64,000 nt of DNA from Bacteroides graminisolvens DSM 19988 = JCM 15093 (GTDB taxonomy: Bacteria > Bacteroidota > Bacteroidia > Bacteroidales > Bacteroidaceae), in the NCBI RefSeq assembly GCF_000428125.1, contig NZ_ATZI01000001.1:186001-250000 (forward strand), read 5' to 3'. Under the pieces are notes generated by a model, which saw only the letters and a program-made list of their open reading frames with translations, had not been told where the DNA came from and made no database searches. The position numbers and the translations under genes were made by a program. Shown piece by piece: positions 18,722 to 43,317 of this stretch (positions are counted from its first letter, which is position 1; each line of letters begins with the position of its first letter).

Positions 18722-19210
18722 ATGAGTGTACCTGTTACAGTAGTGGCCCGAAAAAATCCTGCCAAGCAGAACGAGCCCGAAAAGTTTTATGCCATGGCCC
18801 AGGCGGCGGGCGAAATGAATTTCCGCAGTTTGTGCAAAGATGCCTCTGAAGGCTGCACGGTGATGCGTGCCGATATCGCAGCAGTGCTCTACGCACTGAT
18901 CGATAGCATGATGAAGAGCCTGGCCAAAGGAGAGATTGTGCGCTTCGGCGACTTCGGCAGCTTCCAGGTAGGGGTAAGCAGCACGGGAGTGGAAAAGAAG
19001 GATGATTTCAGTGCCAATCAGGTGAAGGGCGCGCACATCATTTTCCGTCCGGGTATTGACCTCACGGAGATGATCAAGACGCTGACCTTCAAGAAGAAGA
19101 CAGTGGGCAAGGTGGTAGCCGAGAATGAGTTGCCGGGTGAGAATACGGGTGGCAATACCGGAGGAAACACCGGAGGCAATACGGGTGATGATGATGATCC
19201 TAATGGATAA
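18722..19210 (+). CDS. HU-related DNA-binding protein with Gly/Asn/Thr tail
   Basis: 162 residues from the ATG at 18722. It has an HU/IHF-like body of the longer Bacteroidota type (TIGR01201-like): MSVPVTVVARKNP at the start, helical dimerisation part at about 20-65, GEIVRFGDFGSFQVG beta-arm entry, and IIFRPG near 105. The last 25 residues are a low-complexity repeat of GGNT followed by Asp residues. The upstream in-frame start at 18593 is rejected because a -7 box lies inside it and homology begins at 18722. Proteins of this kind occur with DUF4248 and amidase genes in many Bacteroides cassettes. Confidence 0.85.
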   Translation: MSVPVTVVARKNPAKQNEPEKFYAMAQAAGEMNFRSLCKDASEGCTVMRADIAAVLYALIDSMMKSLAKGEIVRFGDFGSFQVGVSSTGVEKKDDFSANQVKGAHIIFRPGIDLTEMIKTLTFKKKTVGKVVAENELPGENTGGNTGGNTGGNTGDDDDPNG

Positions 19211-40170: not shown

Positions 40171-41049
40171 TTAGTTATTAACTATTATAATTTGTTCTCT
40201 TTTATCTAATGGAAAAAACAGTTGTTCAAGTGATTCTCCTTTCACATCGTCCATAATAATTGCCGGACGATAGTCTGGTTCTGTCAACTTCAATTTTACA
40301 TTTTTCAATTTTATATTCTTGGCGTGACGAATATAAAATCCCCACGAAGGTAGTTCACCAAACATACTGAATTCTGGATATTTATTGATATGTTCCGGTA
40401 CTTGGTTTAAACGATTTAAAGGTATATAAGCCATTCCTTTGGTTGCTCTTCCCGGATAGGTTATTTCTATATTTTCAAGATGAATACCTTCTATATAATA
40501 TCCCGGTATACCTGTTATAGATGAAGGAAACGGATTATGGAAAAAATCGACTTCCGGTCCTCTTAAATCATAGTTAATATCTGGCCTTCCAAACGGAATT
40601 TCTACAGTCATGTTTTTTATGGATATATTTTTTATGGTTCCCGGGCGTTCACCTGCTCTGTGTCCCAAACGAATAAATAGGGCATTACCTGTATTCTTTG
40701 CTATAATGTTATTTATATTGATATTTTCAATATGGCCTCCATCAACAGATTCAATGGCAATAGCCGAACGAAAAGTATCAAATACACGAATATCATCAAT
40801 CGTTATATTTTTAAAGCCTCCCCATGAAGCAGTTCCGAATTTTATAGCGCTTGCACTACTACGTACTTCGCAGTCAGCAATGTAAATGCTATCGTTATTG
40901 GCATCGGGATGATAAGACTTCAAGCAAATGCCATCGTCTGCAGAATTGATCTTACATCGGGTAATCTTTACATTATGACAATCAATTATATCAAAACCAT
41001 CATTATTCCAATAAGCTCTATTGATCATGGAAACTTGATCTATTGACAT
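40171..41049 (-). pseudogene. GH28 glycosidase, 5' part missing (C-terminal 292 codons)
   Basis: The frame begins abruptly inside a GH28 beta-helix: RAYWNNDGFDI (N-x-D) at residues 11-21 and SADDGICLKS (D-D) near 37-46 are present, and the C-terminal part is complete. The N-terminal 150-200 residues, including the signal peptide, are gone. The ATG at 41049 overlaps by 10 nt the stop codon of the GH89 fragment, so reinitiation could still give a cytoplasmic fragment, probably without function. A longer GH28 gene lies 9 nt downstream. Confidence 0.85.
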
Positions 41050-41651
41050 GAATCAGGATTCGGTCCTCCCCAACCTTCCAGGTTATTCATTTCCCACCAA
41101 GCCATGAAAGCCGGTCCGGATATGAACTTATTTATTTCTTCTTTGGAGTAGCCCAGCTTTTTGAGCATATTAAACCATATACACTCCTCACCTACCACAG
41201 CCAGCGGCAAGTTAATGCTATGCAATGCCATCCAGTCAATCTCTTGTTCCCAACGCTTCCAGTCCCAGAAAGCCATGGAGTAAGAGAATGTACAATAATT
41301 GAAGTTATAACGGAGTTTCAGAGTGGTTTGATGACGCTCCTTCTTTGTTACTTGAGGCAAAACATCCGGTAGTTTGGCCGTCATGCCATTCCACGACAAA
41401 TGCACTCCCGCATAATATTTAAGATACCAGTTTACTCCCGAAGCGGCGCTTACGTAATTGTTGGCACGAACCACTACCCGATTACCTTTCTGATCGAGTT
41501 CAAAATAATCTTCGTTGCCTATACTTTTTATTTCAATGGAAAATTTCTTGGAAGCACCTTTGTCGATTCGCTCCAACATTCCTGCTACAGGATTAGCAAG
41601 TAGCTGACCCGTAAGCCAGCACATCATACATATACTTAGTAACTTCTTCAT
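41040..41651 (-). pseudogene. GH89 alpha-N-acetylglucosaminidase, 3' part missing (first 203 codons)
   Basis: ATG at 41651 with an exact -7 box (TATATTTG, 41670-41677) and signal peptide (MKKLLSICMMCWLTGQLLA). The sequence follows the GH89 N-terminal and early catalytic regions, including LKLRYNFNYCTFSYSMAFWDW and WWEMNNLEGWGGPNPDS near residue 190. There it changes after PDS to Cys-Gln-stop, where the family continues with Trp-Tyr. Normal GH89 enzymes are about 700 residues, so about 500 are lost. The break joins directly to the GH28 remnant. Confidence 0.87.
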
Positions 41652-41669
41652 AGTGTTAACATTTGAGGC

Positions 41670-41677
41670 CAAATATA
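41670..41677 (-). promoter_or_regulatory. -7 box (TATATTTG) of the truncated GH89 gene
   Basis: Exact TAnnTTTG match on the minus strand, 19 nt before the ATG at 41651. It overlaps a TTG at 41672 that would give a longer, rejected start. Confidence 0.55.
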
Positions 41678-41790: not shown

Positions 41791-42384
41791 TTATTGAATA
41801 GTAACTCCCGCAGGAAGGCTGAATTTATCTTGCAGCACGGCCGCATTTTCTTGTATATCTGTGGTTGTTTCTGTGGCAAGTAGCGTGCCACCAGCCGATG
41901 TTTCGGACTTCAAAGCAATTCCTTTCCAGACCCAGACCTTTAATTGCAGGGTTTGTCCCATTTGTGATATTTCGAGCGTGTAAATTTTACAGGTCTTATC
42001 TCCTATCGCCTCTTCTCCGGCCTCCTTTAATTTATATTGATCTCGTATTTCGTCACTAATCTGAAGGTAATTAATAGGTTTTGTGGGTAGATTGACACGG
42101 TTAGCCACTTTGGTATCCATATCGACCGTAATAACAGAAGTGCTATCCATGATGGTCATCATAGACTTATCGACACCGGGGCCCATACCGTTTTTAAAAA
42201 TAATTTCCGTTGCTTCCTTCTTACCGTAATCATCAATGAAAGTAGTCGATTCAAGTACTTGTCCGGAAAATTCGGTCTTCTTTTTGATGATAGCCGATTT
42301 CATTTCATACTTTGCTTCTTGAGCAGAGAGAGCGATTGTGACGAATAGCAATAAGATTGCTGTTGCAGTTTTTCTAGTATTCAT
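41791..42384 (-). CDS. Secreted DUF4412-like protein
   Basis: 197 residues. Signal peptide (1-21, cleavage after LSAQ region), then a beta-rich body with ESTTFIDDYGKKEA, TCKIYTLEISQMGQ and QLKVWVWKGIALKSE, resembling the LolA-like/DUF4412 fold of periplasmic proteins. Function unknown. It has an exact -7 box (TATATTTG) at 42403-42410 and its own terminator. The palindrome array at 42551-42638 lies about 140 bp upstream of that box. Confidence 0.65.
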   Translation of the reverse strand: MNTRKTATAILLLFVTIALSAQEAKYEMKSAIIKKKTEFSGQVLESTTFIDDYGKKEATEIIFKNGMGPGVDKSMMTIMDSTSVITVDMDTKVANRVNLPTKPINYLQISDEIRDQYKLKEAGEEAIGDKTCKIYTLEISQMGQTLQLKVWVWKGIALKSETSAGGTLLATETTTDIQENAAVLQDKFSLPAGVTIQ

Positions 42385-42402: not shown

Positions 42403-42410
42403 CAAATATA
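42403..42410 (-). promoter_or_regulatory. -7 box (TATATTTG) of the DUF4412-like gene
   Basis: Exact TAnnTTTG match on the minus strand, 19 nt before the ATG at 42384. Confidence 0.5.
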
Positions 42411-42550
42411 TTTATTTCAATGTAAACAATGCCATGAAAAATAATATTTGTTGAGGGAAAGATGTGATTTAGTTGCTGCACATTGAATCCATACTGCTTA
42501 ATGAGGCATAACGACGTGGAGGTATTACATTTCTGTTTAAGAAAAAAAGG

Positions 42551-42638
42551 CGGCTAACCTTGGTTAGCCGATCAGCCAACCAAGGTTGGTAAGTTGAATA
42601 ACCATGGTTAGCAAGTCGGCTAACCATGGTTGGACGCT
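42551..42638. repeat. Four 22-bp repeats with palindromic AACCWWGGTT cores
   Basis: AACCTTGGTT at 42556, AACCAAGGTT at 42578, AACCATGGTT at 42600 and AACCATGGTT at 42622: four cores spaced by exactly 22 bp. Each is widened by partly symmetric flanks, the first to a 9-bp inverted repeat CGGCTAACC-TT-GGTTAGCCG. The units share a loose pattern cggcTAACCWWGGTTrGc. The array is intergenic, 83 bp after rdgB and upstream of the DUF4412-like gene. Confidence 0.85.
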
Positions 42639-42648
42639 AAAAAGCACA

Positions 42649-42686
42649 CTACGTTGTAGCTATAAGAGTATACAGCTATAACGTAG
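42649..42686 (-). terminator. Probable terminator of leuS-yitT-rdgB operon
   Basis: Outer arms CTACGTT/AACGTAG and inner TAGCT/AGCTA form a 38-nt imperfect hairpin. On the minus strand it is followed by TGTGCTTTTTAG. Confidence 0.6.
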
Positions 42687-42720
42687 TAAGTAAAGGGTAA
42701 TAAAGTATGTGATTACTATT

Positions 42721-43317
42721 TTAGACGTTGGTATCGGTTAGGCTAGCCAAGAATTCACAAAGCTTGTCGACCGCCAGAGCACGGTGGCTTATTTTGTTTT
42801 TCACTTCGCTGCCCAATTCTGCGAAGGTTTGGTGGTAACCTTCGGGCATAAAGATAGGATCGTAGCCGAAGCCTGCTTCTCCCCTCTTCTCGGTCGTTAT
42901 TTGGCCGCGGATGATTCCTTCAAAAAGGTATTTCTTACCGTCTAAAATAAGCGATATGGCGGTACGAAATTGTGCACTACGATCTTGCTTGTCTTTCATC
43001 AGGCGAAGTACTTTCTCCATATTGGCCTGCGAATTCTTATCTTCTCCTGCGTAACGAGCCGAGTATACACCCGGTTCATTGTTAAGAGCAGCTATTTCAA
43101 GTCCGGTATCATCGGCAAAACAATCCATGTGGTAATGGTTGTAAATGTACTCAGACTTTAAATGAGCGTTGCCTTCGAGCGTATCGGCTGTCTCGGGTAT
43201 ATCTGTGTCACACGCTATGTCTTTCAGGCTTAGAAGCTCTATTTTATGACTTAGTATGTGTGATACTTCTTCGAGTTTATGTGCGTTGTTGGTTGCAAAA
43301 ACCAGTTTTCTCTTCAT
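42721..43317 (-). CDS. rdgB: Non-canonical purine NTP pyrophosphatase (RdgB/HAM1)
   Basis: 198-residue house-cleaning enzyme hydrolysing dITP/ITP and XTP. Start motif [19 protein letters not shown] near 70, GVYSARYAG, and the C-terminal [10 protein letters not shown] are all in place. It is last in leuS-yitT-rdgB, 2 nt after the yitT-like gene, so probably translationally coupled. Confidence 0.93.

Follow-up and report, generated by a model that had tools for sequence, protein, structure and literature searches.

The window, that is, the whole stretch of 64,000 nucleotides that was analysed, belongs to a genome of 3.63 Mb, referred to below as G000. An array of four palindromes lies in this window between two open reading frames (ORFs) of the minus strand, and the features of the locus are as follows.

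42551..42638, no strand assigned: whole array of four 22-bp units, with short inverted ends GGCGGCTAACC ... GGTTGGACGC (from the sequence)
42556..42565, no strand assigned: palindromic core 1, AACCTTGGTT (from the sequence)
42578..42587, no strand assigned: palindromic core 2, AACCAAGGTT (from the sequence)
42600..42609, no strand assigned: palindromic core 3, AACCATGGTT (from the sequence)
42622..42631, no strand assigned: palindromic core 4, AACCATGGTT (from the sequence)
42541..42570, minus strand: terminator-like end, in which the last unit of the array on this strand forms a hairpin followed by a T run (CGGCTAACCAAGGTTAGCCG-CCTTTTTTTC) (terminator scan)
42648..42687, minus strand: separate hairpin ACTACGTTATAGCTGTA ... 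TATAGCTACAACGTAGT, then GTGCTTTTT (from sequence and fold; absent from the terminator-scan list)
42721..43317, minus strand: ORF on one side of the array, rdgB-like as named in the earlier note (ORF list)
41791..42384, minus strand: ORF on the other side, DUF4412-like secreted protein as named in the earlier note (ORF list)

Re-reading of the window sequence bore out the earlier note's description of four AACCWWGGTT cores, whose starts (42556, 42578, 42600 and 42622) follow one another at an exact step of 22 bp, and its placing of the array, beyond the ORF at 42721-43317 on one side and, on the other, some 140 bp upstream of the TATATTTG box (42403-42410, minus strand) of the ORF at 41791-42384. 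The centre bases TT, AA, AT and AT were also as it had given them. The AACC/GGTT half-sites, which it had called fixed, are so in the window copy only, since the half-site variants CACC, GACC, AACG, GGTC and GGTG occur in other array copies of the genome among those compared. A terminator scan gave 1 site at the array, as against 0.3 expected in shuffled sequences; the T run after the last minus-strand unit had gone unmentioned before. The separate hairpin at 42648..42687 is probably the end of the rdgB transcript.

The motif AACCWWGGTT occurs 5 times in the window, compared with 0.45 expected, and 5 or more occurrences were obtained in 0 of 100 shuffles. Among 61 genomes (G000 itself and 60 relatives), a pattern of two phased cores matched 1, namely G000, and the reversed control likewise matched 1 (G009). 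Single cores were found at 28 sites of the G000 genome, array members included, versus 22 for the reversed control; they are thus near the control level genome-wide, and the signal resides in the arrays alone. The Rfam search of the window stretch yielded only matches far under the family cut-offs, for example to a miRNA family at 27.7 bits versus 97.

The array sequence is present at five loci of G000, which agrees with a dispersed genomic repeat, one of the readings offered in the earlier note. Besides the window copy, there is one at C1:3384, after two tRNA-Asn genes; one at C1:329374, between a cysS-like ORF and an HU-HIG gene; and one each on contigs C11 and C19, 600-800 bp from the contig ends, where the terminal bases resemble rRNA operon leaders by eye. 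The names of the ORFs, such as cysS and metF, were assigned by eye from the ORF translations. Rfam analysis of the four other array loci detected two tRNAs only and no rRNA on the fetched stretches. According to the ORF listings all five arrays are intergenic, and four of them consist of four units, the one at C19 of five. Scattered single copies with no phasing, which the earlier note had named as an observation that would speak against its reading, are therefore not what this genome holds. The inverted ends beyond the array are only about 11 bp long in the window family and imperfect (AGCGGCTAACC). When the window array was searched against 59 other genomes of the genus, weak matches only were obtained; the best (E 0.0025, in G081) is a related array at a different locus.

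Two known classes of element were rejected. An intrinsic terminator as a class was discarded because the T run is not found in all array copies; by eye, it follows the hairpin at the window copy and is absent at C1:3384. A CRISPR array was discarded on repeat structure, as the units differ and the 12-bp spacers are alike.

A tolerant pattern of four cores (up to 3 mismatches) matched 28 of 158 genomes of the genus, and the spacers of these four-core arrays differ from species to species. The reversed control, TGGWWCCA four times at 22 bp, matched 10 of the 158, which suggests array types with other spellings; the matches in question, in G097, G098, G015, G016, G150, G156 (16 matches), G152, G168, G033 and G172, are perhaps such arrays. 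In G034, G152 and G172 (loci L064, L072 and L081) the arrays have grown to at least five 22-bp units, where four are usual.

In four genomes, G000 included, an array lies just past a box of the type TAnnTTTG, the Bacteroides -7 box, and immediately precedes a gene whose product has about 200 residues. All four proteins match the known family HU-HIG (PF18291) above the Pfam cut-off, and the C-terminal part of three of the four gave weak matches to helix-turn-helix or similar families. The G000 copy concerned is located between the promoter and the start codon of the HU-HIG gene G000:C1:329544, whose product has an HU domain followed by a C-terminal winged helix.

This product, encoded outside the window, is 212 residues long. 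In the AlphaFold2 model an HU domain extends from residue 1 to about residue 125, and the C-terminal residues 138-197 show helices and strands as in a winged helix; mean pLDDT is 87.8 over the full chain and 83.5 when the C-terminal part is taken alone. Foldseek matched the whole chain with the Bacteroides DNA-binding protein 4fmr and with HU proteins. For the C-terminal part no Foldseek match reached E 0.001 (best 0.0016); the top rows are mostly chains of ribosome structures, among which the ribosomal winged-helix protein is presumably eS25, and CadC, AntR, Z-alpha domains and a plasmid centromere-binding protein come further down. Pfam analysis of 31 such C-terminal parts returned mainly helix-turn-helix families. 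Burroughs and colleagues reportedly proposed in 2017 that HU-HIG (PF18291) has a role against invading DNA. To our knowledge, neither an array nor a DNA target of the HU-HIG family is known, and no DNA target has been described for the two-domain proteins. In the open-licence literature we found no description of arrays at HU-type genes, and met the term HU-HIG in a single celiac disease paper.

To score the association between array and gene, 73 loci matching PF18291 were used: 30 from 16 array-bearing genomes, all 15 of G000 (two overlap) and 30 from G081, G144 and G066. The 16 genomes had been picked for ACCWWGGT arrays, and their loci are the best-scoring PF18291 matches among those listed. 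L114 (67 bp) was left uncounted for having too little upstream sequence, hence there were 72 testable loci; among all loci studied, L176 (72 bp) was left out for the same reason. A region was taken to contain an array when the lag-22 identity of its best 50-bp window was at least 0.58 and above that of all other lags from 12 to 60 except 44; this criterion was fixed after the first 30 loci had been seen and was kept for the two further sets described below. Proteins of at least 190 residues were classed as long, a cut chosen after the table of loci had been seen; because, with L112 and the shorter proteins listed, none in the set falls between 179 and 198 residues (cases of the L277 type are outside it), the division into long and short does not depend on the exact cut.

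By these definitions, a lag-22 array was found upstream of 44 of the 48 long HU-HIG-profile loci versus 0 of the 24 short ones (Fisher p 2.6e-15), and in 0 of 72 downstream control regions (L097 has no downstream sequence). Among the long loci, identity reached 0.58 at lag 22 in 45 regions, at lag 44 in 30, and at lags 18, 21 and 42 in one each. A separate palindrome score runs from 18.0 to 30.2 at the long loci; it does not exceed 18.0 in downstream regions and is 14.5-19.8 in the regions upstream of short loci, so that the ranges touch at the low end. PF18291 also matches 9 of 14 control genomes and is not specific to Bacteroides; thus the short class takes in ordinary HU proteins. The numbers of HU-HIG-profile matches, 15 in G000 and 45 in G144, include ordinary HU as well. 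These results show that, for the loci examined, arrays of palindromes at 22-bp spacing go with two-domain HU-HIG genes. The window itself holds, at 18722-19210 (plus strand), a short HU-HIG-matching gene (162 aa) with no upstream array, and two copies of equal score are located elsewhere in G000.

When named genomes were scanned with an alignment of seven sequences, 38 loci were obtained, and an array was present at 32 of the 37 that were testable, some of the proteins (L188, L198, L201 and L205) being cut or frameshifted and counted all the same. In this set Phocaeicola vulgatus ATCC 8482 passed and B. xylanisolvens missed; Bacteroides cellulosilyticus and B. clarus were also covered. At least four named regions (L168, L169, L177 and L193, by identical cores) repeat regions of the first set, which reduces 84 regions to 80 different ones. 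In an order-wide sample of 148 genomes, two-domain matches with an E value of 1e-25 or lower came from 8, of which six lie outside the genus of the window, and 12 of the 21 loci scored carry an array; two of the 21 are from the window's genus, and one of these passes. Outside the order (198 genomes), among the matches listed, none but those of G000 cover the two-domain profile, which has 202 positions, from residue 1 to 200. The threshold was missed by 4 of the 48 long loci of the first set; the misses number 5 of 37 among the named genomes and 9 of 21 in the order-wide sample. In three of them (L128, L129 and L133) GCAATTGC palindromes are visible by eye. L157 of the first set and L280-L282 of the order set have repeats with a period of 21 bp, which is still two helical turns. 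The last four belong to a divergent HU-HIG group, in which the proteins start like MAKYIKQEMPD.

The spelling of the cores follows the relatedness of the proteins (Mantel p 0.0005). Among 47 pairs of protein and array, C-terminal identity of at least 0.7 went with a core correlation of at least 0.83 in 28 of 28 cases; in the identity band 0.6-0.7 the mean correlation was 0.72 (11 pairs, lowest 0.04), and below 0.6 the band means were 0.32-0.42, a likeness of cores that does not clearly exceed background. As the reader of the core, the winged helix was inseparable from the HU domain (partial Mantel p 0.15 and 0.25). Paralogues within one genome have a core likeness of 0.31, compared with 0.36 for proteins of different genomes. 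The proteins of G081, G066 and G144 that are nearest to the G000 protein (59-63% C-terminal identity) have cores of the AACC..GGTT type (correlation 0.92) and different spacers.

These three sister species also allowed the rate of change within arrays to be compared at six loci common to two or three of them. The four CC/GG positions were changed in 7 of 192 comparisons (3.6%), the spacers in 66 of 432 (15.3%), the two centre bases in 23 of 96 (24%) and the flanks in 787 of 4408. The difference between CC/GG and spacers has p 1e-5, for comparisons that are not all independent because loci of three species were counted as three pairs. The arrays had been found with the pattern ACCWWGGT at up to 3 mismatches, which is biased towards conserved cores; the centre bases are free although they are part of the search pattern, and this runs counter to that bias. 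Over 80 HU-HIG arrays, dyad agreement peaks at 3 and 4 bases from the centre (0.76 and 0.87) and is 0.53 at the centre. The spacers keep an agreement of about 0.5 and are partly inverted, spacer 1 agreeing with the reverse complement of spacer 3 at 0.51 (shuffled, 0.27). Conserved half-sites with a free centre fit a dimer predicted to sit on the DNA. The earlier note had ascribed to the array the marks of a protein-binding site, and those marks were found, namely half-sites held and centres free in sister-species arrays of the same type, and an array type that stands at an HU-family promoter; the site itself is a predicted one.

The position of the array relative to the promoter distinguishes two kinds of copies. 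The start of the -7 box precedes the first core by 27-28 bp in 48 of the 80 different regions upstream of HU-HIG genes, whereas only 1 of 36 dispersed arrays (L070) has a box within 22-32 bp on either side. These data indicate that the copies at HU-HIG genes are built into the promoter and that dispersed copies as a rule are not. The window array has no -7 box at a distance of the HU-HIG type on either side, therefore no gene regulated by it can be named, and none of the 15 PF18291 matches of G000 adjoins it. Among the 47 HU-HIG arrays compared, it is most like L118, the array of the G000:C1:329544 protein's own gene. Seven dispersed arrays go with the other long HU-HIG protein of G000 (C1:59982), whose core is GCATGC.

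With G066, G144 and G081 taken as one sister group, the best match of 32 of 38 dispersed arrays is to an HU-HIG array from their own genome or sister group, against a mean of 9.4 and a maximum of 19 in 10,000 permutations; three of the G000 arrays of the window type in this test had been found by similarity to the window copy. Without the seven arrays that had been found through such a match, the count is 25 of 31. Of the six misses, five are closest to the array of G143's protein and one to that of a G158 protein; their owners in their own genomes may be absent from the fetched loci. The expanded or odd arrays L064, L072, L080 and L081 were excluded from both the box and the ownership counts, the seven arrays of the second G000 family from the box count only, and L069, L073, L078, L082 and L084 from the ownership count only, no HU-HIG array having been fetched from their genomes.

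Six dispersed loci were found by pattern in G066, G144 and G081, three common to all three genomes and three to two of them. At one of the two-genome loci, a single case, G066 has no AACC-type element and about 1.1 kb of other DNA in its place. By eye, this 1.1 kb (L222, G066:C61:445637-446765) contains a different 22-bp array, like that of the HU-HIG paralogue L150. The dispersed copies of the sister species resemble an HU-HIG promoter and leader with an altered box, for example TGTATCTCTACAG versus TGTATCTTTGTAG (by eye), and the second G000 family looks alike, being similar to an HU-HIG promoter and leader with a changed box. Such likeness, in parts outside the array, suggests that dispersed copies may have arisen by duplication of the HU-HIG promoter/leader region or by MITE-like movement.

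Taken from the sequence comparisons, the window array is likely to be a dispersed copy of a predicted cooperative binding-site array of the HU-HIG protein G000:C1:329544, which would be autoregulatory at that gene. The winged helices of an HU-HIG dimer would read the half-sites and the HU bodies would bend or wrap the array DNA, and four sites spaced at about two helical turns would load the protein cooperatively. At its own gene, the complex would block transcription just past the start and so exert negative feedback. At the dispersed copies, where there is no box, this complex would also assemble but would control no promoter nearby, and these copies might titrate the protein as decoys, organise the chromosome or silence the repeat itself. 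More generally, and only tentatively, each two-domain HU-HIG paralogue of Bacteroides and its relatives might be a sequence-specific chromosome protein with a private array whose spelling changes fast; it would limit itself at its own promoter and bind a few dispersed copies that have no promoter, building nucleoprotein anchors or silencing the mobile repeat around them, as a lock-and-key pair that would diversify by gene duplication; we put forward this wider scheme with some doubt.

The array at HU-HIG genes could also be part of a mobile repeat, its presence there being non-regulatory. A selfish MITE-like or minisatellite repeat, one copy of which adjoins the HU-HIG gene by chance without being bound by the protein, would suit the outer inverted arms CTAAGCCATTTCTT ... 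AAGAAATGGCTTAG shared, some in part, by the dispersed copies of the second G000 family (by eye), the location of several sister-species copies at one end of a repeat of about 300-410 bp, and the variable presence at a locus between species; a comparable MITE with 23-nt repeats, BrickBuilt, exists in P. gingivalis according to passages of its description (PMC4596501). However, a repeat that is a mere bystander does not explain why arrays with group-specific cores stand at 44 of 48 long HU-HIG loci and at 0 of 24 short ones, why 48 of 80 regions keep a constant distance between array and -7 box, or why the half-sites are better conserved than spacers and flanks, and we consider such a repeat unlikely.

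It seems quite improbable that the array acts as RNA, with leader hairpins read by the HU-type protein or the ribosome and with dispersed copies serving as terminators or stabilisers of mRNA ends. The predicted folds are strong (z from -4.0 to -8.2 for 6 folds of arrays at 5 loci), but such folding is to be expected of palindromic units. The array lies downstream of the HU-HIG -7 box and hence probably in the leader, and the window copy has a hairpin with a T run; yet some array copies are without the T run, and copies between divergent ORFs would end no transcript. The partly inverted spacers would fit an RNA or DNA hairpin, whereas the two centre bases change fastest, and the window centres TT, AA, AT and AT are not all paired in a long hairpin. 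It is extremely improbable that the array has nothing to do with HU-HIG and is a local operator, whether of the DUF4412-like gene or of the rdgB operon. The intergenic place upstream of the -7 box of the DUF4412-like gene would agree with it, but the same array type occurs at unrelated places (between the cysS-like ORF and the HU-HIG gene, at the tRNA-Asn genes and at two apparent rRNA leaders). An operator of the DUF4412-like gene, as the earlier note had contemplated, thus gained no support from a window array that lacks a -7 box at the HU-HIG distance on either side.

RAYT proteins are relatives of transposases, and REPs are single palindromes of 20-40 bp; the present system differs from REP/RAYT in having a nucleoid-type protein and phased arrays. 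It is like REP/RAYT in that dispersed intergenic palindromes are paired with one protein gene (PMC3733652). The P. gingivalis HU protein PG0121, which according to the abstract is similar to E. coli HU, is alike as an HU-type protein tied to an inverted repeat at the 5' end of a transcript, and unlike in that the repeat is a single 77-bp inverted repeat of the capsule operon, the abstract naming no private array (PMC3969353). As far as our searches reached, the closest case in print is BrickBuilt of P. gingivalis, compared here by description. Like the present arrays, it is intergenic, dispersed and found in Bacteroidales, with a tandem repeat of 23 nt and leader and tail arms; unlike them, it has 1 to 22.8 repeats where four are usual here, and a unit of 23 nt instead of 22 bp. 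The main text of the BrickBuilt paper mentions no palindrome, and its available passages name no protein partner (PMC4596501). In the same passages, BrickBuilt_14 (84 nt) lies between PGN_0871 (minus) and PGN_0872 (plus), the latter encoding a DNA-binding protein of PF00216, an HU-type family (PMC4596501), as a model of HU arrays would predict.

The pairing of protein and array gives each two-domain HU-HIG protein a readable candidate target and makes its function directly testable. The arrays look like private addresses of chromosome-binding proteins with previously unknown targets. If the proposed recognition is true, it would give a reason for one class of repeats between the genes of gut bacteria, might extend to the BrickBuilt-like repeats of P. 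gingivalis, and would provide many natural protein-operator pairs of differing specificity for recognition work or genetic tools.

Viral sequences were searched as well. The G000 protein gave no relative in the viral contigs searched, and the two-domain proteins matched phage families weakly (best E 2.8e-6, phrog_379) and PADLOC at no better than E 0.023, on which grounds a phage element was rejected. Three weak matches came from a search of phages with the rdgB flank and were set aside. The three-core pattern matched 5 viral stretches and its reversed control 2; of these seven, six were judged by eye to be tandem microsatellites or to fall within ORFs. The viral contig IMGVR_UViG_3300028048_000193 (L283:751-1420) carries an array of four 22-bp units with CCTAGG cores, the first core with one changed base, upstream of an ORF of 181 residues whose HU-HIG match is just below the cut-off (25.4 versus 26.2 bits, E 1.6e-5). 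This array stands beside a short HU-HIG-like protein, so the rule that only long proteins have arrays is not absolute.

Elsewhere in the window, at 40171-41672 (minus strand), two truncated ORFs abut, one with an alpha-N-acetylglucosaminidase-like start and the other with a GH28-like end by eye, as if a deletion had joined two genes.
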